A stretch of DNA of 64,000 bases, from the NCBI RefSeq assembly GCF_000746025.2, contig NZ_CP045798.1, positions 1,040,501-1,104,500 of the forward strand, read 5' to 3'. The position numbers were made by a program, and so were the translations under genes. The DNA is from Thermanaerosceptrum fracticalcis (GTDB lineage Bacteria; Bacillota; Peptococcia; DRI-13). Position 1 is the stretch's first letter. The number at the start of each line of letters is the position of its first letter. A model generated the notes under the pieces. That model had not been told where the DNA came from. It searched no databases and saw nothing but the letters and a program-made list of their open reading frames with translations. This document shows, in pieces, positions 11,974 to 25,522 of this stretch.

Positions 11974-12660
11974 CTAATCTAAAGTAATTACACTAATTTT
12001 ATTTTTAAAGCGCCGCAAGATACTGTAAAATGTGCGGCCAAAAGTTAAAGAGAAACCAATATTACCAAGGGCATGTAAAGTATCAAAAGGAAAACTGGCA
12101 AGATAAGTAGCCATAAAGGTTTTCAGTGTTAAGGGATAGACAAAGCCAACCCAGTGCCATATATTCATAATCCAGCCAAAAAGATAGCCCCAGAAAGCTC
12201 CAAGAATGATAAAATTTCTTAGATTAAACTCTTTTTCTTTTTTGGCTAGAAGGGCAGCTGTCACTCCACACAAGCCCCAGCAAACCATCTGCCAGGGTGT
12301 CCAGGGCCCCTGCCCTAAAAAGAAATTAGAAACCAGTGCAGCCAGAGCTCCTACCATAAAACCTGTCTGAACTCCAAAAACATAACCAGTAATCATTACG
12401 ATAAAAGTGGTGGGTTGCACACTCATAATTATCGCAAAAGGGATCCTGGAAACTGCGGCTAAGGCTGCCATGGTCGCTACTAGTGCAACTTCCTTGGCAG
12501 AGACCTCCTTTTGTTCAAAGCGCCAGAAAAAAGCAAGCAAAGCCAACGCTAGTATCACCGCAGAAAGAACTGCCCAATTGATATTGTCTAAAGAGATAAT
12601 ACTAATGCCCAAGAGAGAAACAACAACAAGAATTACGATTAGCCAAAAGTTTTTTTTCAT
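11974..12660 (-). CDS. ECF transporter S component, probably corrinoid-specific
   Basis: A 228-aa membrane protein with six to seven hydrophobic segments. The stretch from about residue 55 (VALVATMAALAAVSRIPFA, then TTFIVMITGYVFG, GFMVGALAALVSNFF) has the S-component look, including the small-residue helix (ALAA) that packs on EcfT. Substrate specificity cannot be read directly. Cobalamin or another corrinoid is inferred because it is the last gene of an operon under a cobalamin riboswitch that also encodes EcfT, EcfA and DUF4430 proteins. It would bind the substrate in the membrane for ATP-driven import. The first about 45 residues form two extra helices not typical of minimal S components. 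Confidence 0.85.
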   Translation of the reverse strand: MKKNFWLIVILVVVSLLGISIISLDNINWAVLSAVILALALLAFFWRFEQKEVSAKEVALVATMAALAAVSRIPFAIIMSVQPTTFIVMITGYVFGVQTGFMVGALAALVSNFFLGQGPWTPWQMVCWGLCGVTAALLAKKEKEFNLRNFIILGAFWGYLFGWIMNIWHWVGFVYPLTLKTFMATYLASFPFDTLHALGNIGFSLTFGRTFYSILRRFKNKISVITLD

Positions 12661-12723
12661 TGTACATGCCCCTAAAACTATGAAACTTTTAGTTGAGCTT
12701 AACTGCTTAGTGATTTACTTAGC

Positions 12724-14253
12724 TTACTGGTTTTTTGTCAGGCTTCTTAGTTTTGCAATACTATAGGCGCACTGGGCTCGGGTGACATAATTCTTATGGT
12801 CAAAGCTTGGATATAACAATCCTTTTTCCAAGGCCATGTCTACACTCCCAGAATACCAGTAAGGACCTGCTTTAATTAGAATCTGCTCATCTAAAGGGAG
12901 TGCTCTCACAAGCATAGCAGCAAGTTCTGCGCCTGTAATTTTCCCCTCAGGATCAAAGGTTTCCGGCGTTTTCCCTTTAACAAATCCTTGGTCATAGGCT
13001 ATGGAGATGACTGTATGAGCCCAGTGCTCCATAGGAACATCCTTAAAATGCCGGGCAGAATTACTTTCTAAGGCAGCAAGCCCTAGCCCATAAACCATAA
13101 ATTTGGTAAATTCAGCCCTGGTTACAGGGTTTTCCGGTCGAAAAGTACCATCAGGGTATCCACCCAAAACTTTAGCCTGGATTAACTCCATTATAGGATT
13201 ATAAGCCCAATAGTGTTTATCCAGATCGGTAAAGGGATACTTTTGTGCACCCTCAGAGTTTTGTAAAAAATCTATATTTACTGGAAAAGGTCTCTGTGCC
13301 AAAGCCATTATAGCATACGCAGTCATCAGTACTGGCGAAGAGACAACATCCTTCATCCAGCTAAAAGACCCGTCACTGTTTTGTAAACTTAATAAATGGG
13401 CTACAGGGTTCTTTCCATTGGCTTGCCAACCAACACTAAAAGGGTCTTCTCCAACAGCTACAAGCCCTTGGATTACCCAGGCATCAGTAGCCGCATTACT
13501 TCTTTGCCCTGTCCATACAAAACCGCCGTCGGCCTCCTGGCACTTTTTTAAATACTTAAGAGCCTTTTGTATGGCCGTAGAGTCTTGGGGATTTTCTCCC
13601 AATAACACAAGAGTCGTTATGGCAACTCCTGTATCATCCGGATCACTTTCCCCTCCAAGGGCCCAGCCAAATCCGCCATCCTCATTTTGCTGGGATAAAA
13701 GCCATTCCCTGGCTTTATCCTTATTAGGGATTTCCCGTCCTGCAGAAGCCAAAGCAATAATAGCCCACATATGGCTGTTTACAAGTTCTAGTTCCCCTAA
13801 GTCTGGTTGAGCAAATTGCCCATTGTCCCGCTGAAAGGAAATGATTTTTTCAGCCAAATCGATGCCATTGAATTCAGCCCCACACTTACTTGCCGTTAAA
13901 GCTAACAAAGTCCTGGCATAATCATTCGTGGCTTCAAGAAGATTACTTCCTGTATTAAGATAATCTAATGGATTTCGGCCACCTTTCATCCATTTGTTGC
14001 TTTTTACATCTTCTCCTGCAGCCCTTAGGGCCATTATTACCCAAGCCGTTATACCCATACTGCTTTTACGGCCTTTCTCACTCGGAAAACCACCATCGGA
14101 ATTTTGCACAGCAGCCAAATAAGCAACAGCTTTTTTAATATTCTCTGCTACCTGTTTGTCAGCAGATCCCGAAGCGGCTATAACCGGGTTAGTCATTAGA
14201 AGCAGGAAAACCAGTAGTAAACTAACAATATATTTTATTTTGCTTTTAACCAT
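12724..14253 (-). CDS. SLH-anchored alpha/alpha-barrel (prenyltransferase-repeat) surface protein
   Basis: A 509-aa exported protein. A signal peptide (IVSLLLVFLLLMTNPVIAA) is followed by repeats of the squalene-cyclase/prenyltransferase type across about residues 33-335 (AVQNSDGGFPSE, SQQNEDGGFGWA, CQEADGGFVWT, SLQNSDGSFSWM). This alpha6/alpha6 barrel is also the fold of the N-terminal domain of intrinsic factor and transcobalamin. Three SLH domains follow (about 345-509; GYPDGTFRPENPVTRAEF is typical) and attach the protein to cell-wall polysaccharide. No enzyme residues stand out. In this riboswitch-controlled operon it probably binds or hands over corrinoids at the cell surface. Confidence 0.85.
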   Translation of the reverse strand: MVKSKIKYIVSLLLVFLLLMTNPVIAASGSADKQVAENIKKAVAYLAAVQNSDGGFPSEKGRKSSMGITAWVIMALRAAGEDVKSNKWMKGGRNPLDYLNTGSNLLEATNDYARTLLALTASKCGAEFNGIDLAEKIISFQRDNGQFAQPDLGELELVNSHMWAIIALASAGREIPNKDKAREWLLSQQNEDGGFGWALGGESDPDDTGVAITTLVLLGENPQDSTAIQKALKYLKKCQEADGGFVWTGQRSNAATDAWVIQGLVAVGEDPFSVGWQANGKNPVAHLLSLQNSDGSFSWMKDVVSSPVLMTAYAIMALAQRPFPVNIDFLQNSEGAQKYPFTDLDKHYWAYNPIMELIQAKVLGGYPDGTFRPENPVTRAEFTKFMVYGLGLAALESNSARHFKDVPMEHWAHTVISIAYDQGFVKGKTPETFDPEGKITGAELAAMLVRALPLDEQILIKAGPYWYSGSVDMALEKGLLYPSFDHKNYVTRAQCAYSIAKLRSLTKNQ

Positions 14254-14279
14254 AAGGTTCTGCCTCCTTGCTTCAAAAC

Positions 14280-15962
14280 TTAATATAAATTTCTCGCAGC
14301 AATGATAAGCCTTTTTAAAGCCTGCTCTCCTTCCCTAAGAGTTACTACTGTATCATCGAATTTGTTAAATAATTTACTAACCTGGGGCGAATAAAAAGTA
14401 GACTGGGTCAACATCTCATACTTACTGCCCCTGGCTATAATAGTACCCTGGGTCATTAAAACAACTTCTTGGGCAAATTCTGCCGCAAATTCTACATCAT
14501 GGGTCACTACCAAAAGGGCTTTACCTTCTTTTTGTAATTCTAATAATAATTGACCAAGGTTATTCTTTAATTCATAATCTAGACCTCTGGTTGGTTCATC
14601 CAGAAGGATAAGCTGAGGCTCGGCTACCAATACAGAAGCTAAAGCTACTCTCTGTCTTTCACCAGAGCTTAAATCCCTGGGGTTTGACATGGCATACCTG
14701 GTTAAATCTAACCTTTCCAGCCATTTATCAATCTTACCATTATCCTTTAAACAAAGGTTTTGTAAGGTAAAAGCCAGCTCTTCCCTAACTGTCGGCAAAA
14801 AAAGATAGTCGTTGGGATTCTGAGATAAATAACCCACTATCCCCGCCAGCTGTTCTACACTTGTTTCGCGGATATCCTGGTGTAAAATTTTTATTTTTCC
14901 CCTTGTAGGTTTTAGTAGACCCCTGATGTTTTTTAATAAAGTAGTCTTCCCGGCAGCATTCTCTCCCATTAAAACAATCAGGTCTCCTGGATAAATTTTG
15001 AAATTAATATTTTGTAAAGCTTCGGTGCCGTTTTCGTAGGCAAACCACATTTTTTCAATTTCTACCAAAGGTTCTTTCTTGCCTGAGCTAACAGTTCTAG
15101 GGTTACTCTCTTCTTTTTTAAATTCTTGGTTACTAACTGAAGAAACTGCTTTTAACAATTTTCTCCCTTCCTTAACTGTTAGGGGGATTTCTGAAAACCC
15201 AGCAACAGTAAAGAGCTTGGCCAAGGGCGGAATAAAGGGGCTCTTATTCTCTACAGCCCATTTGGCGATTTCTCCCCGATCAGTATGGTTATAAACAATC
15301 TGGCCCTGTTCCATTACTAAAAACCTGTCAGCCAGATGAAAACACCTTTCCAGCCTTTGTTCTATCAGAATAACCGTAATGCCGTTATCTTCATTCAATC
15401 TTCTAATGATGGTGAGTATTTCTTCTCCAGCCACTGGGTCCAGTTGGGAAGTGGGTTCGTCCAGGATTAAAATATCCGGCTGCATAGCCAGAATGGAAGC
15501 AAGGGCTACTTTTTGTTTTAACCCCCCTGATAATTCGGGAGTATTACTTTTTAGTAAAGGAGTTAAACTTAAAGCCTCCGCAACTTCCATAATCCTTCTT
15601 TTCATGAGGCTCTTGGGTAAGCCCAGATTTTCTAAGCCAAAGGCCAGTTCCTGTTCCACATTGGTCATGACAAGCTGGCTTTCAGGATCTTGAAATACCA
15701 TGCCAACCTTTTGTACAAGGCTCTCTCTACCCATCTGCCTTAACTCAACACCAGCAATACTAACACTGCCGCCATATTTCCCGCCATAAAAGTCAGGTAT
15801 AAGTCCAGCTAAAGCCCTGACCAAAGAAGACTTTCCACTGCCGGAACCGCCTACTATCAGTACAAATTCTCCCTCATTGATAGAAAGATTTATCTTATCT
15901 AGCGCTGGCTTATCCGTTTCTGGATAATAGTAAGTCAAATCCTTGACTTCAACAAGGGCCAT
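14280..15962 (-). CDS. ECF transporter ATPase with two fused ABC domains (EcfA-A')
   Basis: About 560 aa. ATG 15962 is preferred (GGGGGTGGAAAA upstream). Domain one (about 1-240) has Walker A GGSGSGKSS, signature LSGGLKQKVALAS and Walker B ILILDEPTSQLDP. Domain two (about 300-530) has GENAAGKTT, LSSGERQRVALAS and LILLDEPTRGLDY. Both sites look intact. It energises the EcfT/S-component complex from the cytoplasm. The frame overlaps the end of ecfT by 28 nt, a sign of translational coupling. In many species EcfA1 and EcfA2 are separate; here they are one chain, as in dedicated (group I-like) ECF systems. Confidence 0.93.
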   Translation of the reverse strand: MALVEVKDLTYYYPETDKPALDKINLSINEGEFVLIVGGSGSGKSSLVRALAGLIPDFYGGKYGGSVSIAGVELRQMGRESLVQKVGMVFQDPESQLVMTNVEQELAFGLENLGLPKSLMKRRIMEVAEALSLTPLLKSNTPELSGGLKQKVALASILAMQPDILILDEPTSQLDPVAGEEILTIIRRLNEDNGITVILIEQRLERCFHLADRFLVMEQGQIVYNHTDRGEIAKWAVENKSPFIPPLAKLFTVAGFSEIPLTVKEGRKLLKAVSSVSNQEFKKEESNPRTVSSGKKEPLVEIEKMWFAYENGTEALQNINFKIYPGDLIVLMGENAAGKTTLLKNIRGLLKPTRGKIKILHQDIRETSVEQLAGIVGYLSQNPNDYLFLPTVREELAFTLQNLCLKDNGKIDKWLERLDLTRYAMSNPRDLSSGERQRVALASVLVAEPQLILLDEPTRGLDYELKNNLGQLLLELQKEGKALLVVTHDVEFAAEFAQEVVLMTQGTIIARGSKYEMLTQSTFYSPQVSKLFNKFDDTVVTLREGEQALKRLIIAARNLY

Positions 15963-16849
15963 TTTTTCCACCCCCAGTTCAGACAGGCAGGAAATATGAA
16001 GAAGATACTCAGAAATCCAGCCATTACGATCTCTTGTAAATCTACTGGCTGTAACCTGGGATAATACCGGTAACTAGTCCAGCCGGCAAAGACTAACCAG
16101 GTTCCCATAATAATACCTATAGCAACAAAGGTAATAATCAGAATATCTCTAGGATGCCATAATTCCTCAGTATAATGGGACCTCTTGCCCAAACCATATC
16201 CTCTGACCTGCATGGATTCAGCAAGCTGAAAAGACCTTTCCAGACTGGACAAAAGCATAATGTTAATGACAGGCACAAGTTTTTTAAGTTTTTTCTGCCA
16301 ATGATTTTCCTGAAAGTTTACTCCCCGGCAGCGCTGCACTTCCATAATTCTTTGAAAATCACTGGTCATTAAAGGGAACAAGCGAGTTGCAAGACTCAAT
16401 GCCAGTACTGTTTTGTTGCCCCACTTGCCTAAAAGCTTTAAAACTTTATCGGGATGAACAGCATGTGTATATAGACAGAAAGCACTGATAATAACGAAAA
16501 ATCTCAACCCCATCCCTGCTCCATAGCACAGAGCCTCCAAAGTTATTCTAATCTTCCCGATTCCCGGCATGACTGGCCCTACTAAGAGTACCGTAGTACC
16601 AGCTCTTACAAAAAGACAGTTTACCATTATAATAATTAAAATAAAGCCCAGGCTAAATTTGAGACAGGTTACCCACTCCCTGGTAATTTCTGCAGATACT
16701 ATAACCATACCCAGGGCCAGAAAAAGGGCCAAAAGAAAAACCGGATGGGAAAAAACCAAAGATAACAGGGCTATTGTAAAGATATAGAAAATTGAGGTTA
16801 AAGGATGGATTCTATAAATTAGATTATCTCTTTCTCTGTAAATAAACAT
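15935..16849 (-). CDS. ECF transporter T component (EcfT)
   Basis: A 304-aa membrane protein with five to six hydrophobic helices and two coupling-helix motifs with the Arg-Gly pairs typical of EcfT (EVQRCRGV and AESMQVRGYG, about residues 165-215) that dock on the ATPase. The conserved N-terminal phrase IHPLTSIFYI is also typical. It joins the double ABC protein to the S component. It lies 2 nt downstream of the DUF4430 lipoprotein gene and overlaps the ATPase gene, so the three are transcribed together. Confidence 0.92.
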   Translation of the reverse strand: MFIYRERDNLIYRIHPLTSIFYIFTIALLSLVFSHPVFLLALFLALGMVIVSAEITREWVTCLKFSLGFILIIIMVNCLFVRAGTTVLLVGPVMPGIGKIRITLEALCYGAGMGLRFFVIISAFCLYTHAVHPDKVLKLLGKWGNKTVLALSLATRLFPLMTSDFQRIMEVQRCRGVNFQENHWQKKLKKLVPVINIMLLSSLERSFQLAESMQVRGYGLGKRSHYTEELWHPRDILIITFVAIGIIMGTWLVFAGWTSYRYYPRLQPVDLQEIVMAGFLSIFFIFPACLNWGWKKWPLLKSRI

Positions 16850-16851
16850 CT

Positions 16852-17934
16852 TTAATCCCTCAACAAAGGTAGTCTAATAATCTCTCCGGGCAAAACAACA
16901 GCACTGTACATGCCCATAATTTTTTGGGGACACTTAACTAAAACATCTACAGCTTCCTCAAAACCTCTTCTATCCGTACCAGAAATAAGCCAAAGCGGAC
17001 TGTCATCACCGCTGCCTTCACCAGTAGCAACGATTACTCCGGCACTCCCCTGCAATTTCTTAACCCCTTCCCCCTGATAGTCCAATAATTCGATACTACT
17101 TTCTGTAAAGTGAATAAAGGTGCCATTTTTTTTGTAAGCATTGTTTAATTCTTTCATCCAGGCAATATCTTTTAGCTTCTCCCATTCGCCGATAAGGATA
17201 GTGGGGCCTTCTCTCTGCGTAAGCATTTCAGCATTAATCTCCTGTACATCAACTCTTAAAATACCGTAATCTTTCATGCTTTCTTTTAATTTTATAGCCA
17301 GCTCTGTTTCGCCAGAACCACACATGATGGTAGTCTTCTTAACTTGACCCCTAAAGCCGTGCAAAAATGGTTCAGGAAAACAGCCGACAACAGCAGGTAT
17401 ACCTTGAGACAGCTTCCAGGGATGATAATCCCACCAGATGATTTCACCCGGTTTGGGTTCGTAATCTAAAGCTCCAACGTCAGCAAAAATCCCGTTAACA
17501 TAGTAAAACCAATCTTTTCTTACACCTGATACCCCGCCAGTATCTGTCAATAAGCCATTAATACCGCTGACAAACCCACCTCCGTAAGAGGTCTTTACAT
17601 CAGCGCCGGCCAGAAGAAGGGCATCCATTACAGACATATTTTTTTTAAAATTAACTTTAACCTCTAAGAGTTTCTCTTTTCCAAAATCCTTAGTTACTAT
17701 TACTTCTATTTTTTCATTTTTAGCAGTTGTTACATTGTTTTCTCTGCCATGCTTCTCGCTTACAGGTATTTGGGCATTGGCAAGTTTTCCTTCATCCACA
17801 TTTGTGTTTACCGGTGCTTGAGTCTTTTCTTTTCCGTCAGTCAGCAAATTACGGTCTTGATTATGTTTATCGCACCCAGCAAGACACACTACCAAACCCA
17901 GCAGTAGGATGGCAAGAAGTACTGATCTTTTCAT
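16852..17934 (-). CDS. DUF4430 (transcobalamin-like) lipoprotein with extra C-terminal domain
   Basis: About 360 aa from ATG 17934 (GGAGGATTCT upstream). A lipoprotein signal ends in LAGC with Cys21 as the lipidated residue. About residues 95-185 form a DUF4430 domain: SVMDALLLAG, GGFVSGINGL, KDWFYYVNGIFADVGA and KPGEIIWWDYH. In Pfam/InterPro this domain is related to the C-terminal domain of transcobalamin. The remaining about 175 residues (from VVGCFPEPFLHG) look like an alpha/beta domain of no recognised family. It would sit on the outer face of the membrane and may pass the substrate to the ECF transporter encoded directly downstream. Confidence 0.88.
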   Translation of the reverse strand: MKRSVLLAILLLGLVVCLAGCDKHNQDRNLLTDGKEKTQAPVNTNVDEGKLANAQIPVSEKHGRENNVTTAKNEKIEVIVTKDFGKEKLLEVKVNFKKNMSVMDALLLAGADVKTSYGGGFVSGINGLLTDTGGVSGVRKDWFYYVNGIFADVGALDYEPKPGEIIWWDYHPWKLSQGIPAVVGCFPEPFLHGFRGQVKKTTIMCGSGETELAIKLKESMKDYGILRVDVQEINAEMLTQREGPTILIGEWEKLKDIAWMKELNNAYKKNGTFIHFTESSIELLDYQGEGVKKLQGSAGVIVATGEGSGDDSPLWLISGTDRRGFEEAVDVLVKCPQKIMGMYSAVVLPGEIIRLPLLRD

Positions 17935-17967
17935 AGAATCCTCCTCATAAACAGCCACAAAGTCATA

Positions 17968-18006
17968 GCACTGCCTGGCTGCTCCGCTATAGCAGCCAGG
18001 CAGTGC
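17968..18006. repeat. Perfect 16-bp intercistronic hairpin
   Basis: GCACTGCCTGGCTGCT (17968-17983) pairs perfectly with 17991-18006 across a 7-nt loop. It lies between the 865-aa surface-protein gene and the lipoprotein gene. No T-tract follows on the minus strand, so it is better read as an RNA-stabilising or processing hairpin, or a partial attenuator, than as a full terminator. It could allow the surface protein to be made in excess of the transporter. Confidence 0.7.
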
Positions 18007-18063
18007 AGACCTATAAATGATTACCAGTCTTTGGGTTCTTCACATCTGCTTTTATTTTTTTTA

Positions 18064-20661
18064 TTACTTAACTATTTCTACCATTCTGCTGGATGGAAAC
18101 CATGTTACATAAGCTCCCAAGGATTCTGAAACATAACGGATGGGTACAAGGGTACGACCAGTAATGATCGTTGCAGGCGTATCTAAACCAGGCCCAGTTT
18201 CTCCAATAACCAGGGTTACTTTTTTACCATCCAACATCATTTCCACTGTTTTTGTTTCTGCGATCCACTCTACCTCAGCACCCAAATTTTCCCCGATAAA
18301 TCTTAAAGGTACCATAGTACGGTTACCCAGGATAACCGGCGGAATATCAAGCCAAATTGTTTTGCCGTTAACCGTAGTAGTTAACTTGTTCACTCCTAAA
18401 CTGATTTTTTTCAGGTCTTTAGCTTTCACTACCCCATATAAGCTGAATTTATCGCTATAGAAAGTAAAAGTCTTTTTCTCGGAATCGTAAGCTCCGCCCA
18501 GTTTTACAGGTTTAACATTACCTTGAGCATCCTTCTCATATCTTATCCCGGTTAATTTAGCAATGTCCTCTTGATTCAGAACTGAGCCTGATAAATCAAT
18601 AGTTACTTTTACGGGTTCCTGGAAGTTTTTAATTACATCAGTATTAACAGTGCCATCATTGCTGGTGCGTATTATTTGGGCAGTTAAATCTACTATCTTA
18701 GCTCCAATATCAAACAACCCGGTACTTTCACCTACAGAAGCCTTTGAAAGTATTTCTTGTTTTTCTGCTCCACTTACTTCTCTTGCTCCGATTTCTAAAG
18801 CAGCATTTTTATCTTCTAGAACTTTCATTAACTCTTCTGTAATTAAGGATTGGGGAGCAAATTCTACTTGAAGACCCTTGCTTTCTATAGTTAGTGGTTT
18901 GTTATCGTTGGCTAATCCAACAATTGTATGGGGAGAAAGCTTACCCTTTCCATCAGTTTTTTCTGCTAGGTTAAGTCTGGCTTGTCCTGTTTGCTGAATG
19001 GTATCAGACAATTTCTTATCATCAAGAATATTAGGGTTTTCTTTAGTATTAGAAGAAACACCGGATATTTCAGTAGGGCTTGTGCTGTACCACCAGACAA
19101 CCAGGTCATTATTGGCAACCGGGTAATCTTTGGCAGGCACCCCGGGTACAACACCGTTAACCTTATACATCCACCCGTTCATGCCCTGGGGTCCCTGGCC
19201 TGCAATTGTGTCAATATAGCTCGGGTTAGCATCATTATAACTAAGTCCTGTTTTATCCAAAGCTCCTAAAGCAGTAACACCCCATCTATCACTCTCCCTC
19301 AATGTTACAGTACTTGGACCAAACAAAGTTTCTCCGCTTCTGCCAATAACTTTTATAGTAACTCTGATGCCTTGTTGGTCATTATTGCCGCCATTGTTTC
19401 CTCCGCCGGCAACACTTACATCAGCAGTACCGCTAACGCCTTGATAAGTTGCAGTAATAACTGTATTTCCTGCCGCCACCCCTGTAACCAGACCTCTGTT
19501 ATTTACCGTTGCTATACTGCTGTTATTTACAGACCAGTCTGCTGCTGCACTTACATCCTCATTGGTACCATTCAATTTATAAATTTGGGCCGTATATTGT
19601 TGACTGCCGCCTGCAACTATATTTGCACTGGCTGGCGTCACTCTTAAACTTAGTACAGCGTCAGGCGAAATATTTCCTCCTAACACACGGTAAGCATCCA
19701 AAGCCCAGGTGTTGTCCATCAGGTTCTTGGAGGTACCAAACGTCCCATCCTCATTGAGAGCACTATCCCGCATGTAATCTACGGCACTCTTGCCGCCGAC
19801 TGTCCAGACCGCAGGGTCCATACCCAGGCAGTTTAAGGTAAGTATTGTTTCTGCCGTGTCTACAAGCGGATCATCAAATCCTCCAGCGTCTTGAAAGCTT
19901 CCATCGTCTTTTTGCAGAGCCCTCAGCCAGGCAATTCCCTTATCGATAGCCGTTTGCACGGCATCAGCCTGCCCTCCCGCAAGGGGCTTCAGGTATTCTA
20001 ACGCCCGCACCGCCTGGGCTGTCGCCTGAAAATCGTTCCAAGTGGAAGTCCAGGCCCCTGTACCGCCGTCCTGACAGCTTAAGATATAAGTAATGACAGC
20101 TGCTGCATCTATTTCGGCCATGTCCCCGGCTCTGCCCAATGATTCAAAGGCGGGCAAGTCGCTGAAGGCATTGTTGTCAAAAGAGCCGTTCCCGCCTGCC
20201 GTCTGCCTGTTCTTTAAGATGTTCAGCAACTGGGTCGCTCTTGCATCTCCGAAAGCTTTTGCCGCCAGATATTCATGCGCTACTCTTTTGGCCGAAGACT
20301 GATTTTCTTTCCCTTCGTTTGCAATAGTCGCATCAATTAAACTCAAGACACTGTCTTTGAAACTTGTGCCGTTATATACCCATGTTCCTACATCCGCCCC
20401 CGCCTGGGTCAGGATATAGGCATCATAGGCACCAAAGTTCCCCCAGCCGCCGTCAACTGCCTGTCCACCTTGGTGTAAATTGTAGTTGTTTCTTGCTGCC
20501 TTTAATGCTAAGTTATCATATACCTCTGCGGCCACAGCTTTGCCATTATCGAGTCCACTAAAAAGTAATGGCCATGCAGGCAATAACAAGGTTGCTATAA
20601 AGAATATCAGTAATAACTTAGATACCAGGTATCTGTGTGTTTTCTTTGTAAAAATATTCAT
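18064..20661 (-). CDS. Transcobalamin/intrinsic-factor-like surface protein (barrel + Big2 + DUF4430 + CuAO-N stalk)
   Basis: An 865-aa exported protein, first gene after the riboswitch. Order: signal peptide (1-45); alpha/alpha-barrel repeats, about 45-330 (QAVDGGWGNFGAYD, LQKDDGSFQDAGGF, LNEDGTFGTSKN); a Big2 Ig-like domain, about 335-418 (LRVTPASANIVAGGSQQY); DUF4430, about 430-530 (GMNGWMYKVNG, VVWWYS); a mixed region, about 540-755; and two copper-amine-oxidase-N-type repeats to the end (GNRTMVPLRFIGENLGAEV, ITGRTLVPIRYVSE), a known surface stalk without the oxidase. Barrel plus DUF4430 is the domain plan of mammalian B12 carriers. Cobalamin binding is inferred from this and from riboswitch control; it is not shown. 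Confidence 0.88.
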   Translation of the reverse strand: MNIFTKKTHRYLVSKLLLIFFIATLLLPAWPLLFSGLDNGKAVAAEVYDNLALKAARNNYNLHQGGQAVDGGWGNFGAYDAYILTQAGADVGTWVYNGTSFKDSVLSLIDATIANEGKENQSSAKRVAHEYLAAKAFGDARATQLLNILKNRQTAGGNGSFDNNAFSDLPAFESLGRAGDMAEIDAAAVITYILSCQDGGTGAWTSTWNDFQATAQAVRALEYLKPLAGGQADAVQTAIDKGIAWLRALQKDDGSFQDAGGFDDPLVDTAETILTLNCLGMDPAVWTVGGKSAVDYMRDSALNEDGTFGTSKNLMDNTWALDAYRVLGGNISPDAVLSLRVTPASANIVAGGSQQYTAQIYKLNGTNEDVSAAADWSVNNSSIATVNNRGLVTGVAAGNTVITATYQGVSGTADVSVAGGGNNGGNNDQQGIRVTIKVIGRSGETLFGPSTVTLRESDRWGVTALGALDKTGLSYNDANPSYIDTIAGQGPQGMNGWMYKVNGVVPGVPAKDYPVANNDLVVWWYSTSPTEISGVSSNTKENPNILDDKKLSDTIQQTGQARLNLAEKTDGKGKLSPHTIVGLANDNKPLTIESKGLQVEFAPQSLITEELMKVLEDKNAALEIGAREVSGAEKQEILSKASVGESTGLFDIGAKIVDLTAQIIRTSNDGTVNTDVIKNFQEPVKVTIDLSGSVLNQEDIAKLTGIRYEKDAQGNVKPVKLGGAYDSEKKTFTFYSDKFSLYGVVKAKDLKKISLGVNKLTTTVNGKTIWLDIPPVILGNRTMVPLRFIGENLGAEVEWIAETKTVEMMLDGKKVTLVIGETGPGLDTPATIITGRTLVPIRYVSESLGAYVTWFPSSRMVEIVK

Positions 20662-20816
20662 TTTATTCCTCCTCCTGCTATGTATCTATTTTCTCTTGCT
20701 ATCAATACATCTTTTGCTAACTTTTCTCACCTCCAATAATAAATCCCTCAGCTAAATAAGCTAAAACCCAGGGCACCAAATGGATAAAAGTAAACATCAT
20801 GCCTGACAAAGAAAGC

Positions 20817-20858
20817 TTAAAAAATTAAAAGTCTCTTAGTATGTTACTAAGAGACTTT
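20817..20858 (-). terminator. Riboswitch-associated intrinsic terminator
   Basis: A perfect 14-bp stem (20828-20841 with 20845-20858; AGTCTCTTAGTA core) with a 3-nt loop is followed on the minus strand by TTTTAATTTTTT. It sits about 65 nt downstream of the aptamer and about 155 nt before the surface-protein start, the expected place for the off-state expression platform of the cobalamin riboswitch. Confidence 0.88.
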
Positions 20859-20921
20859 CCCCATCTTAAAGCCGCTAGCAGCTAGAACGAATTTAATCCC
20901 CTTCGTCTAGTTCATACATTT

Positions 20922-21172
20922 AAGGCAGGTCTCCTGGCTCGCGGGTCAACCTCTTCCCGCCTTCCCATCCGCACTCAACTTGTGATTAAAACTTAATTTA
21001 TAATTCCATACTCTTTTTTTAGTATGTTCAAATAAATTTTATGCTTTCACATTAACCACTAAGTTGAGTGCTGGACAGTGGCATACTGGGATTTGTCACC
21101 GCTTACAGTGGTGGGTCCGCACCGGAATTTCACCGGTTTCCCTATTCTCCCCTTGACGGGGCACCTTAAATG
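20922..21172 (-). ncRNA. Cobalamin riboswitch aptamer
   Basis: Reading the minus strand from about 21172: AAGGTGCC, GGGAAACCGGTG, AATTCCGGTGCGGACCC, CCACTGTAAGCGG, GCCACTG, GGGAAGGCGGG and finally GAGCCAGGAGACCTGCC, which are the conserved blocks of the AdoCbl riboswitch in the right order. An extra arm closed by GCACTCAACTTAG/CAAGTTGAGTGC-type pairing holds an AT-rich insertion of about 90 nt (about 20975-21070). Binding of coenzyme B12 should favour the terminator at 20817-20858 and shut off the downstream corrinoid-uptake operon. Confidence 0.95.
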
Positions 21173-21194
21173 GGAATTATTTACTTCTAGAAAT

Positions 21195-21224
21195 ATGTTA
21201 ATCCTTAGTTTGTTTTTTTGTCAA
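21195..21224 (-). promoter_or_regulatory. Promoter of the cobalamin riboswitch operon
   Basis: On the minus strand, consensus TTGACA (21219-21224) and TAACAT (21195-21200) are separated by 18 bp. Transcription would start a few bases before the first conserved riboswitch block. Confidence 0.65.
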
Positions 21225-21567: not shown

Positions 21568-22656
21568 ATGAACAAAAAGATTCTCATTATGCTTACGGGG
21601 GGTGTTGTAGGTTTATTGGGTGTACTTCTGGTGGTATTCGGAAATCCAGCTAACATGGGCTATTGTATAGCTTGTTTTATACGGGATATAACTGGCGCCT
21701 TGGGATTACACCGTGCTGAACCCGTCCAATACCTAAGACCTGAGATTATTGGCTTAGTTATTGGGGCATTTGCTACTGCTCTATACACTGGAGAATTTAA
21801 ATCTGTTGGTGGGTCTAATACATTCACCCGATTTACTCTAAGTTTTTTTGGAATGTTTGGTATGTTAGTGTTCCTAGGTTGTCCTGTACGGGTTGTGTTA
21901 CGCCTATCAGGAGGAGACTTAAATGCAATTATGGGATTATTTGGTTTAATTGCTGGCATAGGTTTAGGTACATATTATATTAGCCAAGGATATTCCTTAG
22001 GTAGAACAGTATCTCAATCAAAAACAAATGGGTATATTTTTCCTTTGTTTATGGTAGCACTTTTGATTTTATTAATAGCTAACCCCCCATTTATATTCTT
22101 TAGTAATAAAGGTCCTGGCTCTCAACATGCAGCAATATGGCTGTCTTTATTGGCAGGGCTAATTGTAGGCTGTCTGGCTCAACGCTCCCGTCTATGCATG
22201 ATTGGGGGAATAAGAGACTTTGTCTTTTTCAGAGACACTTATTTACTCTCTGGATTTATAGCAATGTTAGTAGTAGCAACTTTAGGCAACTTAGTGGTAG
22301 GTAAATTCCACCTGGGTTTTGCGAACCAGCCTGTAGCTCACAGTGATGGTTTATGGAATTTCCTTGGAATGACATTGGCAGGTTTCTCTTTTGTCTTACT
22401 TGGTGGTTGTCCTCTTCGCCAGTTAATCTCTGCTGCTGAAGGTAATGGCGACTCAGCAATCACTGTTCTTGGCTTAATGGCAGGAGCAGCATTTTCCCAT
22501 AATTTCTCTCTTGCTGCCAGTCCTGCAGGTGTACCAATTGGTGGAAAAATAGCTGTTATTCTTGGTCTTATCGTAGTTTCACTTATTGGTGGACTAAACA
22601 TATTAAAATTTAAGAGAATAGGAGGTACTTTAAATGTCACAAGTGGTGGACGCTAG
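21568..22656 (+). CDS. yedE: YedE-type membrane protein of selenium metabolism (YeeE/YedE family)
   Basis: A 362-aa polytopic membrane protein with about nine to ten hydrophobic helices. Family marks are NPANMGYCIACFIRDITGALG near the start, VFLGCPVRVVLRL, QRSRLCMIGGIRD and LLGGCPLRQLISAAEG, with the conserved pore-lining Cys residues. This full-length type with the CIACFIRD start matches the selenium-associated YedE subgroup; others of the family import thiosulfate. Transport of a selenium or sulfur compound is inferred. AGGAGGTAGTTT precedes the ATG. It overlaps the TusA-like gene by 23 nt. Confidence 0.87.
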   Translation: MNKKILIMLTGGVVGLLGVLLVVFGNPANMGYCIACFIRDITGALGLHRAEPVQYLRPEIIGLVIGAFATALYTGEFKSVGGSNTFTRFTLSFFGMFGMLVFLGCPVRVVLRLSGGDLNAIMGLFGLIAGIGLGTYYISQGYSLGRTVSQSKTNGYIFPLFMVALLILLIANPPFIFFSNKGPGSQHAAIWLSLLAGLIVGCLAQRSRLCMIGGIRDFVFFRDTYLLSGFIAMLVVATLGNLVVGKFHLGFANQPVAHSDGLWNFLGMTLAGFSFVLLGGCPLRQLISAAEGNGDSAITVLGLMAGAAFSHNFSLAASPAGVPIGGKIAVILGLIVVSLIGGLNILKFKRIGGTLNVTSGGR

Positions 22657-23152: not shown

Positions 23153-23377
23153 TTATATTTCCACCTTGTACGAATTCCCGATCCGCAAATTGAAGCGGGC
23201 TCCCGGCATAATCACATACCACTGATGATCGTACTCTATGCGGCAAGGAATACTAGTTGAACCGATTAACAAATCAAAAACTTCTCCACAATGGAGTTCG
23301 TAACAGTAGTCTCCCGTATCCACCATCCAGCGGTCTTGTTCGTGGTCGTATGTCATCTTGCACCATTGCTGCTTCAT
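23153..23377 (-). CDS. DUF5348-type small transposon protein
   Basis: 74 aa: MKQQWCKMTYDHEQDRWMVD, then a compact beta-rich chain (GDYCYELHCGEVFDLLIG, CRIEYDHQWYVI, FNLRIGN). The pattern fits DUF5348, a small domain of unknown role often encoded beside such transposases. The start overlaps the stop of the ATPase gene by 4 nt (ATGA), so they are translationally coupled. It could be an accessory factor for transposition or regulation. Confidence 0.75.
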   Translation of the reverse strand: MKQQWCKMTYDHEQDRWMVDTGDYCYELHCGEVFDLLIGSTSIPCRIEYDHQWYVIMPGARFNLRIGNSYKVEI

Positions 23378-24174
23378 GACAATTCTCCCTGGATAACCAA
23401 CTTAACCATATGGTCATCGATGATCCGGCGGCCATTCTGTGCCCCATATAGCAAGCAGTGAGTACAGACCTTGTTCACTAGCCTAGGGACACCACTAGAG
23501 AACCGAAATATCTCATCCAAAGCACCATCAGAAAATATATCATGGTCGGCACCAGCGTAAGCAAGATGTCGTTTCACATAATCCCCTACCTGGGCGCGGT
23601 CCAAGTGGGGCAGTTTACACTGGAGATCAATGCGTTGCCGGATAGCGGCATAGGCCTGAAGCTTAAACTTCTCCCAAAGTTCAGTCTGACCGACGAGGAT
23701 AAGAGCCATGGGACTTTGCGCATCCATCTTGAAATTGAGAAGGAATCTGACCTCCTCCAGCATCTCCCGGTCCAGAAGATGTGCTTCATCTACGATGACA
23801 ACAGGCTGAAGATGCTGGATACCCCGCATAAGCTCGATTTCTCTATGCAGTTGACGCTTGGCATCACCACGATAAAATTTGGATTCACAGCCTAGCTGCT
23901 CCAAGAGACCCTTGTAGAAATGTCTGGGTGTCAGCTTGGAATCCGCCAGGTACAGCACCATGAATTTAGCAGGGTCTAAGGAATCCCTGAATCGACGGAT
24001 AGTAGTAGTCTTGCCAGTCCCGCAGTCACCGGTAACAACGGCGAACAACTGACGCTGGGCAGCATATTCCAGGCGACCTAACGTCTCTTCCAGCATGAGT
24101 GACTGATACAACTCGTTTGTTGGGATATCCCGTGAAAACGGAGTTTGAGATAGCCCGTAGAAAGGTTCAAACAT
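23374..24174 (-). CDS. ExeA/TniB-like AAA+ ATPase of the transposon
   Basis: 266 aa. PFYGLSQTPFSRDIP is the start typical of ExeA/TniB-family ATPases. Walker A is GDCGTGKTTTIRR (about residues 47-60), Walker B is VVIVDEAHLLD (about 125), and sensor motifs LILVGQ and SSGVPRLVN follow. Such proteins bind target DNA and activate the DDE transposase, sometimes giving target immunity. It lies 1 nt after the transposase stop. Confidence 0.87.
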   Translation of the reverse strand: MFEPFYGLSQTPFSRDIPTNELYQSLMLEETLGRLEYAAQRQLFAVVTGDCGTGKTTTIRRFRDSLDPAKFMVLYLADSKLTPRHFYKGLLEQLGCESKFYRGDAKRQLHREIELMRGIQHLQPVVIVDEAHLLDREMLEEVRFLLNFKMDAQSPMALILVGQTELWEKFKLQAYAAIRQRIDLQCKLPHLDRAQVGDYVKRHLAYAGADHDIFSDGALDEIFRFSSGVPRLVNKVCTHCLLYGAQNGRRIIDDHMVKLVIQGELS

Positions 24175-24175
24175 C

Positions 24176-25522
24176 TTAGTTCCCTGCCTTTCTTACGGTT
24201 CTGTAGGAAATGGCAGGAGCCTGTTGTTCTATTCTCTGCTGATTCTTCTCAAGAGCTGCAGCCAGGAGTCTTGAGGATTCGGCTGGTTGTGTCCTTAGAT
24301 GTTCAGGTAGCTTAGGTCGCTGGCCTACCATTTCTCCGATAACGAGTTCCCGGGCCTTCCAAGGGGTATGCCCCTCATATTCTATGGTCAGTTCAGTAAT
24401 GTCAGCGGGATCATAGATGACATCTACGGTACACCCGATGAAACTAAGCCCGACCTCATACTTTTTCCCCTGGAAGCTGATACATCCAGCTTTATCAACT
24501 TTGCGTTCTTCGCAATGAAGAAAGGCGTTGGCTACTGTTTCCGGGTCCAGGAATTTTAGGGCTTTTTTGTCGCTACGATAGGCACTGGCGGGGCTAGCTT
24601 TGCCTTCCAATGCAGAATGGGGCTTGTTTTGATAACACTCCTCTAACCACACCCAGAACAGCTCATTGAGTTTGTCTAATGACTGAGGTTTCTCCAAGGC
24701 AACTTCACTGAGAAAGGAATCGACCACCCGGTTAAAACGTTCCACTTTCCCAGTCGATTCTGGGGAATATGGCCTAGCAAATAGTAGCCTAATCCCCATC
24801 TTGGCGCAGGCCCGTCCCATCCATTTTGTCCGGTACTGGCTGCCGTTATCGAAGAACACTGCCTCCGGCACTCCATATTTTAAGATAGCCTGACGGAAAC
24901 AGTCTTCAACGATGACCTGATCCAAGGTTGGATAGAACTGACCGTGAAGAACAAACCTAGTGCAATCATCAAAAAATGTTACTAAGTATACCTGCTTCTT
25001 GGTACCATCTATGCCGATAGGTAAGTAGGGTCCATACTTAATGTCGGAATGCCAAAGCTTGTTACGATACTTCTGCTGATACCGCCGAGTAGCAACACCG
25101 GTACTCATATACATCTGCATATGCCTGGCGCTGTATCCACGTTCGGCTAGCTTCTCTTGCAGTGTACTGCGCTTAATTTGACCCGGCTGGGCCAGACCTT
25201 CCCATTCTAGAATCTGTATGATTTGGGCCACACTGCGCTTTGGAACCTCTCGTCGCAATAATATGGCCTGTTCCAGGATGTTTGGCGGAATGGCATCTTC
25301 GCTTCTGCTCTGAGCTTTACCTTTGGGCTTAAGTCCGGCAAAGCCATGTGTCTTATACTCTGACAGATATCTGCGCAGAGTACGTTCGGAAATTCCAGCC
25401 TGCTCGCAAATTTGGGTTTTAATCTGTCTGGCTTTGGCAGGGTCCAACCCTTCAGTTAGAAGTGGGGATATGAGTTGTACTCGTTGAGTAGCAACGTCCT
25501 CGGCCTTTTTTTGGTCTCTCAT
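24176..25522 (-). CDS. DDE transposase/integrase (TniA/Mu-type) of the transposon
   Basis: A 448-aa protein. N-terminal helix-turn-helix (GISERTLRRYLSEYKTHGFAG and a second one near residue 105) is followed by an rve core with the DDE triad in WHSDIKYGP (D about 160), AVFFDNGSQYR (D about 220) and STGKVERFN (E about 257). The C-terminal beta-rich part (about 340-420) resembles the Mu transposase C-domain. It cuts and joins the element ends. The frame is full length, with ATG after AGGGAGGTAATCTAGC. Confidence 0.9.
   Translation of the reverse strand: MRDQKKAEDVATQRVQLISPLLTEGLDPAKARQIKTQICEQAGISERTLRRYLSEYKTHGFAGLKPKGKAQSRSEDAIPPNILEQAILLRREVPKRSVAQIIQILEWEGLAQPGQIKRSTLQEKLAERGYSARHMQMYMSTGVATRRYQQKYRNKLWHSDIKYGPYLPIGIDGTKKQVYLVTFFDDCTRFVLHGQFYPTLDQVIVEDCFRQAILKYGVPEAVFFDNGSQYRTKWMGRACAKMGIRLLFARPYSPESTGKVERFNRVVDSFLSEVALEKPQSLDKLNELFWVWLEECYQNKPHSALEGKASPASAYRSDKKALKFLDPETVANAFLHCEERKVDKAGCISFQGKKYEVGLSFIGCTVDVIYDPADITELTIEYEGHTPWKARELVIGEMVGQRPKLPEHLRTQPAESSRLLAAALEKNQQRIEQQAPAISYRTVRKAGN

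Follow-up and report, generated by a model that had tools for sequence, protein, structure and literature searches.

ECF transporters are, to our knowledge, usually described as operating without extracellular binding proteins. The stretch of the chromosome of Thermanaerosceptrum fracticalcis, a Gram-positive anaerobe, analysed here (64,000 nucleotides, hereafter the window) raises the question of what such a transporter may gain from proteins of this kind and which substrate they would serve. On its minus strand six genes in a row (11974-21224), headed by a cobalamin riboswitch, encode a surface "stalk" protein with an alpha/alpha barrel and a DUF4430 domain, a DUF4430 lipoprotein, EcfT, a double EcfA, a barrel protein with an SLH anchor and an S component, in this order. 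We consider it probable (approximately 0.8) that the operon specifies a CbrTUV-type importer for the salvage of corrinoids, both B12 and its precursors, together with extracellular proteins of its own that resemble transcobalamin in build.

Gene content and regulation of the operon

The riboswitch and the six genes had been listed for this stretch in the initial annotation, and this list proved correct throughout (Table 1): the strand is the minus strand, the Pfam matches agree and the aptamer lies far above the RF00174 gathering score of 31.5 bits. The protein domains named there were also recovered. Three features had been left out: in the stalk protein the Big_2 domain and the Cu_amine_oxidN1 stretches, and in the lipoprotein a large C-terminal domain.

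Table 1. Features of the operon, in the order of transcription (positions in the window).
Feature	Position	Strand	Basis
Promoter-like site TTGACA-18-TAACAT (sigma-70-like)	21195-21224	-	consensus scan, 10/12 positions; directly upstream of the riboswitch
Cobalamin riboswitch aptamer RF00174	20907-21183	-	120.4 bits, E 1.2e-29, full model 1-189
Intrinsic terminator after the aptamer	20827-20859	-	15-pair stem then T-rich tail; RNA fold z -3.1
Secreted "stalk" protein, 865 aa	18064-20661	-	alpha/alpha barrel, Big_2, DUF4430 and two Cu_amine_oxidN1 stretches
Stalk 12-helix alpha/alpha barrel, residues ~40-330	19672-20544	-	secondary structure of the AlphaFold2 model
Stalk DUF4430 (transcobalamin beta-domain-like, SLBB)	19057-19374	-	PF14478 E 3.6e-12
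Stalk Cu_amine_oxidN1 stretches (two)	18073-18375	-	
Stem-loop, 16 bp, between stalk and lipoprotein genes	17968-18006	-	fold z -5.7
DUF4430 lipoprotein, 360 aa, C-terminal BcsB-like alpha/beta domain	16852-17934	-	PF14478 E 1.4e-14
EcfT (CbrV-like)	15935-16849	-	PF02361 E 3.6e-22
Double EcfA ATPase (CbrU-like)	14280-15971	-	PF00005, two stretches; TIGR04520 E 1.2e-120
Secreted alpha/alpha barrel with SLH anchor, 509 aa (conserved family A4)	12724-14253	-	PF00432 E 2.2e-17; SLH E 1.5e-27
S component, CbrT family (corrinoid)	11974-12660	-	6fnp_A E 4.4e-15, single sequence

Judged from the sequence, the riboswitch and the terminator probably form an OFF switch acting by transcription termination. 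At low adenosylcobalamin transcription would pass the terminator, and enough of the cofactor would turn the operon off. The stem-loop between the stalk and lipoprotein genes possibly sets the amount of the surface protein above that of the transporter. A uniformly conserved hairpin behind the stalk gene was considered and rejected, as the structure is strong here, yet the corresponding stretches of related loci fold with z below -2 in only 15 of the 35 measured.

Across the 3.8 Mb of the genome DUF4430 is encoded just twice, each time within this operon, and the gene order recurs in relatives; the grouping is therefore not due to chance. Upstream of the operon and divergent from it lies a gene for a YedE-family putative selenium transporter (21568-22656, plus strand). 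According to the translations, transposase-type ORFs at 23374-25522 adjoin a prophage-like region (approximately 27300-59100) with terminase-, portal-, capsid- and DnaB-like helicase-type ORFs and phage-type regulators.

Predicted transcobalamin-like folds of the surface proteins

Because a sequence-only comparison with the PDB tied neither the stalk protein nor the lipoprotein to transcobalamin (TC), structure prediction was needed for this link. In sequence comparison the DUF4430 profile came no closer to haptocorrin than E 0.46, and PF01122, the cobalamin-binding family of animals, was absent from a Pfam scan of 31 family members at E up to 1. AlphaFold2 models were built from the window sequence and related loci. 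When the model of stalk residues 40-545 (mean pLDDT 92.4) was compared with the PDB using Foldseek, the top four matches were transcobalamin chains (E 4.3e-8 to 5.3e-8), followed by bovine transcobalamin, haptocorrin and intrinsic factor. The architecture of intrinsic factor and transcobalamin had been proposed for the system in the initial annotation, and the fold matches support it. The alignments extend over approximately 520 columns and cover both domains, at a sequence identity of approximately 11%. The overall rmsd is large (approximately 23 Å), probably because the Big_2 domain separates the barrel from the DUF4430 domain; in two Chloroflexota relatives (L157, L158) the linker between them comprises 9 residues. 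The barrel alone also resembles terpene cyclases, GH88/GH105 enzymes and complement TED, and by sequence the stalk toroid has a weak Prenyltrans match. The barrel fold being very common, it is the pair of domains and their order that make the likeness to transcobalamin specific.

According to the models, the stalk protein and the animal carriers (transcobalamin, intrinsic factor and haptocorrin) would have in common a 12-helix alpha/alpha barrel followed by a beta-grasp domain. The bacterial system differs from these carriers in having Big_2 between the two domains, in its surface-anchoring domains and in that the parts are also split into separate proteins. It has no matching cysteine set either: rat TC has four disulfides (PMC11107200), and the three or four barrel disulfides of the animal carriers were not found in the stalk barrel, the translation of which contains two cysteines. 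The stalk protein ends with the two Cu_amine_oxidN1 stretches. At the C terminus of orthologous proteins Cu_amine_oxidN1 and SLH swap (L128, L129, L135), and this interchange suggests that Cu_amine_oxidN1 is a surface-attachment module.

The lipoprotein has the lipobox LAGC, and its start is most likely the ATG at 17934, after GAGGAGGATTCT. The two DUF4430 domains of the operon score 54.7 and 47.0 bits, against a curated PF14478 cut-off of 23.8. In the AlphaFold2 model of the lipoprotein, covering residues 76-368 of a longer reading of it (mean pLDDT 94.3), the first domain matched the transcobalamin beta domain in the fold search (5np4/5no0, TM 0.66-0.68 by target, 18-20% identity), in line with the earlier likening of the two, as well as 3u7z of R. 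gnavus. The second domain, of approximately 160 residues if the domains are divided according to the alignment lengths, resembles part of BcsB of cellulose secretion. The most conserved segment of the lipoprotein family (2.71 vs. 1.97 bits) is the one matching TC strands 3'-8', as mapped by the order of secondary-structure elements and not by superposition. In the TC beta domain these strands carry ligand contacts and hold the corrin (PMC11107200).

Among the three extracellular proteins the 509-aa barrel is the least certain corrinoid binder. The profile of its family has its best matches in squalene-hopene cyclases and reaches cyclases and prenyltransferases, not transcobalamin, and barrel homology alone was therefore dropped as an argument. 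An exported enzyme or a structural wall protein that binds no corrinoid would agree with these matches, with the occurrence of a separate barrel in only 26 of 80 CbrT loci and with the terpene-cyclase-like motif D-x-D-D-T, which is kept in 14 of the 26 stand-alone family members as against 3 of the 31 DUF4430-fused barrel constructs. However, secretion and anchoring in the wall remove the protein from isoprenoid substrates, it occupies a conserved place in the operons of different orders, and barrels of the same operons are fused to DUF4430 or, in one relative (L094), to the S component. We find such a role rather unlikely. In the 509-aa protein itself the motif reads D-P-D-D-T, resembling the catalytic motif of squalene-hopene cyclases; relatives of the protein were not found in viral contigs.

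Substrate and possible route of uptake

Used as a 25-member profile, the S component reached 6fnp_A at E 3.2e-35, and the sole other PDB chain reached was 4hzu_S, at a marginal E of 0.0087. The former belongs to ECF-CbrT of L. delbrueckii, a proven transporter of cobalamin and cobinamide (PMC5997447), and CbrTUV is a standard transporter in B12 genomics (PMC6593275). The corrinoid specificity presumed from the outset is supported by this assignment to the CbrT family, and of the refutations named in the initial annotation none that computation can reveal was encountered. ECF S components are hard to separate by general families, and in Pfam the present one scores both as ECF_trnsprt and as riboflavin type, so the surface proteins might bind, and the transporter import, a non-corrinoid such as cobalt, a corrinoid base or another vitamin. 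Given the CbrT match in the PDB, and a CbiM-type cobalt gene and a CblT-like gene elsewhere in the genome, each with its own cobalamin riboswitch, this appears very improbable; for cobalt in particular, the CbiM-type gene led us to drop the idea.

Similarly to L. delbrueckii ECF-CbrT (6fnp; PMC5997447), the T. fracticalcis system has a CbrT-family S component, EcfT and two EcfA units. It differs in that the EcfA pair is fused, the ECF module lies inside the same operon and three extracellular binder-like proteins are added. Since no DUF4430 protein is needed for the activity of ECF-CbrT in E. coli (PMC5997447), the extracellular proteins are not strictly required, and most likely they raise capture without being indispensable.

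The other cobalamin riboswitches of the genome are found near genes for BtuC, CobT, CbiM, CobU/CbiD and a CblT-like protein, named from their translations except for those scanned in the biosynthesis operon. This operon for anaerobic B12 synthesis, which has a cobalamin riboswitch of its own (G000:C1, approximately 892600-909000; L041, L208), encodes behind CobU the scanned CbiD, E, T, L, F, G, H, J and C together with cobyric acid synthase, and the translations suggest CbiB, CbiA, CobS and others further on. B12 auxotrophy was rejected on this ground as the reason for the importer operon. With both operons present, the organism is predicted to make B12 as well as to salvage it, and the need for import is therefore conditional. 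It could also be that the ligands captured by the surface proteins are not B12 itself but corrinoids that are incomplete or of foreign origin, such as cobinamide and other cobamides, to be remodelled in the cell. The genome encodes CobU, CbiB, CobS, CobT and the CbiDETLFGHJC set (some of these names again by translation), so salvaged precursors could be rebuilt; in addition, CbrT takes cobinamide (PMC5997447) and the TC beta domain binds it (PMC5599065). No sequence feature, however, separates these ligands, and we regard a restriction to such corrinoids as somewhat unlikely. It would in any case be a version of the main explanation and not an alternative to corrinoid uptake.

As for how the parts of the corrinoid importer may work together, computation supports the regulation, the transporter type and the folds, and we infer binding, closure of a barrel in trans and hand-over. 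The stalk protein and the wall barrel would expose candidate domains for corrinoid binding on the outer side of the membrane. The DUF4430 domains could catch the corrinoid at the surface, and a barrel, of the same chain or of the separate SLH-anchored protein, would close over it as the TC alpha domain does on the beta domain. The membrane lipoprotein, having the beta-grasp domain and no barrel, may then receive the ligand and hand it to CbrT, which the EcfT/EcfAA motor would power and turn inward. In transcobalamin, the beta domain alone binds B12 and cobinamide, and separately made alpha and beta domains assemble only once B12 is added (PMC5599065); beta is thought to bind first, with alpha closing afterwards (PMC11107200). 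A tentative extension of this route is that transcobalamin is split over proteins, the 509-aa wall barrel and the lipoprotein DUF4430 domain joining in trans only with corrinoid and the ligand moving by domain exchange from stalk to lipoprotein and finally to CbrT. If this were true, an ECF transporter would gain a working extracellular substrate-binding system.

Earlier descriptions and distribution

The layout of the operon, taken in the initial annotation as one not known from any description, had in fact been described together with its likely role. Burroughs, Balaji, Iyer and Aravind (2007; PMC1796856) defined a transcobalamin-like SLBB clade in Gram-positives, fused to an alpha/alpha toroid (Desulfotomaculum is cited), with operons that contain a second extracellular SLBB protein and CbiQ/CbiO. 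The proteins were predicted to scavenge B12 or its precursors and to form surface complexes, and animals were proposed to have acquired the gene from Gram-positives by lateral transfer. The secreted toroid-SLBB protein, the second SLBB protein, CbiQ and CbiO of these operons all have their counterparts here. The carriers were said there to be usually without B12 biosynthesis, whereas the present genome has an operon for it. In addition to that, an "additional lipoprotein component of putative cobalamin ECF transporter" appears as a protein name in a proteome paper on L. rhamnosus (PMC9963975). With the 2007 description, CbrTUV as a standard transporter and the lipoprotein name in use, the locus therefore belongs to an already predicted kind.

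The present analysis adds the assignment to CbrT, the riboswitch, the barrel standing alone with its exchangeable anchors, and the presence of a B12 biosynthesis operon in the same genome. Neither "riboswitch" nor "S-layer" occurs as a word in PMC1796856, and its consulted sections do not mention an S component or a stand-alone barrel. In the open-licence literature we found no description of the riboswitch at the head, the stand-alone wall barrel, the exchangeable anchors or the BcsB-like lipoprotein domain, which is weak as a sign of absence, and no experimental test of the system predicted in 2007 or binding or transport data on its proteins. BtuG and BtuH of Bacteroides (PMC6143338, PMC8941943) are comparable in function, as lipoproteins that capture B12 at the surface on behalf of a dedicated importer, but they serve the outer-membrane transporter BtuB of Gram-negatives, and the likeness is one of role.

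Neighbourhoods of riboswitch, DUF4430 and ECF genes, for which a genome survey had been suggested, turned out to be conserved. Relatives within the order and the class have their genes arranged in the same way (stalk, lipoprotein, EcfT, EcfAA, barrel, S), and a cobalamin riboswitch was present in all seven loci searched. DUF4430 was present in 91 of 299 genomes drawn from the phylum. Among 40 regions picked by DUF4430 alone, an S gene of the CbrT type was present in 30, and in 29 a riboswitch lay on the same strand at most 2 kb upstream; several of the remaining regions end at contig ends; by chance, with 0-13 riboswitches per genome of approximately 1.4-6.8 Mb, well under one would be expected. 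In the reverse survey, 72 of the 80 CbrT loci of the genome collection had DUF4430: a small DUF4430 protein was found in 70, a barrel-DUF4430 protein in 47, a separate barrel in 26 and all three in 17. CbrT is therefore constantly accompanied by the small DUF4430 protein, and barrels may or may not be present. As a control, 11 of the 54 EcfT genes in 11 single-contig genomes adjoin DUF4430, exactly one per genome. A proven cobalamin S-component family is thus almost always accompanied by a candidate extracellular binding protein, and this set, a widespread candidate for surface capture on behalf of an ECF transporter, is now defined well enough for direct testing.

The minimal form, DUF4430 and S only, was met in four genomes (L104, L106, L107, L126). 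Outside Gram-positives, CbrT-DUF4430-EcfT-EcfAA operons are found in archaeal (Thermoplasmata) MAGs (L163, L168, L188, L194) and in Chloroflexota MAGs (L157, L158, L162, L164), where they possibly arose by lateral transfer; relatives of the lipoprotein were not found in the plasmid collection. The system bears on how B12 is caught at the cell wall in Gram-positives and in some Chloroflexota and archaea, and also on the 2007 proposal that intrinsic factor and transcobalamin were taken by animals from such bacteria. Some relatives have fused genes, either EcfAA-S (L093, L102, L121) or, in one relative (L094), S-barrel-SLH. Three cobalamin riboswitches are found at one further locus (L114, G070), where an SLH protein of 2534 aa that matches DUF4430 weakly neighbours two additional DUF4430 proteins.
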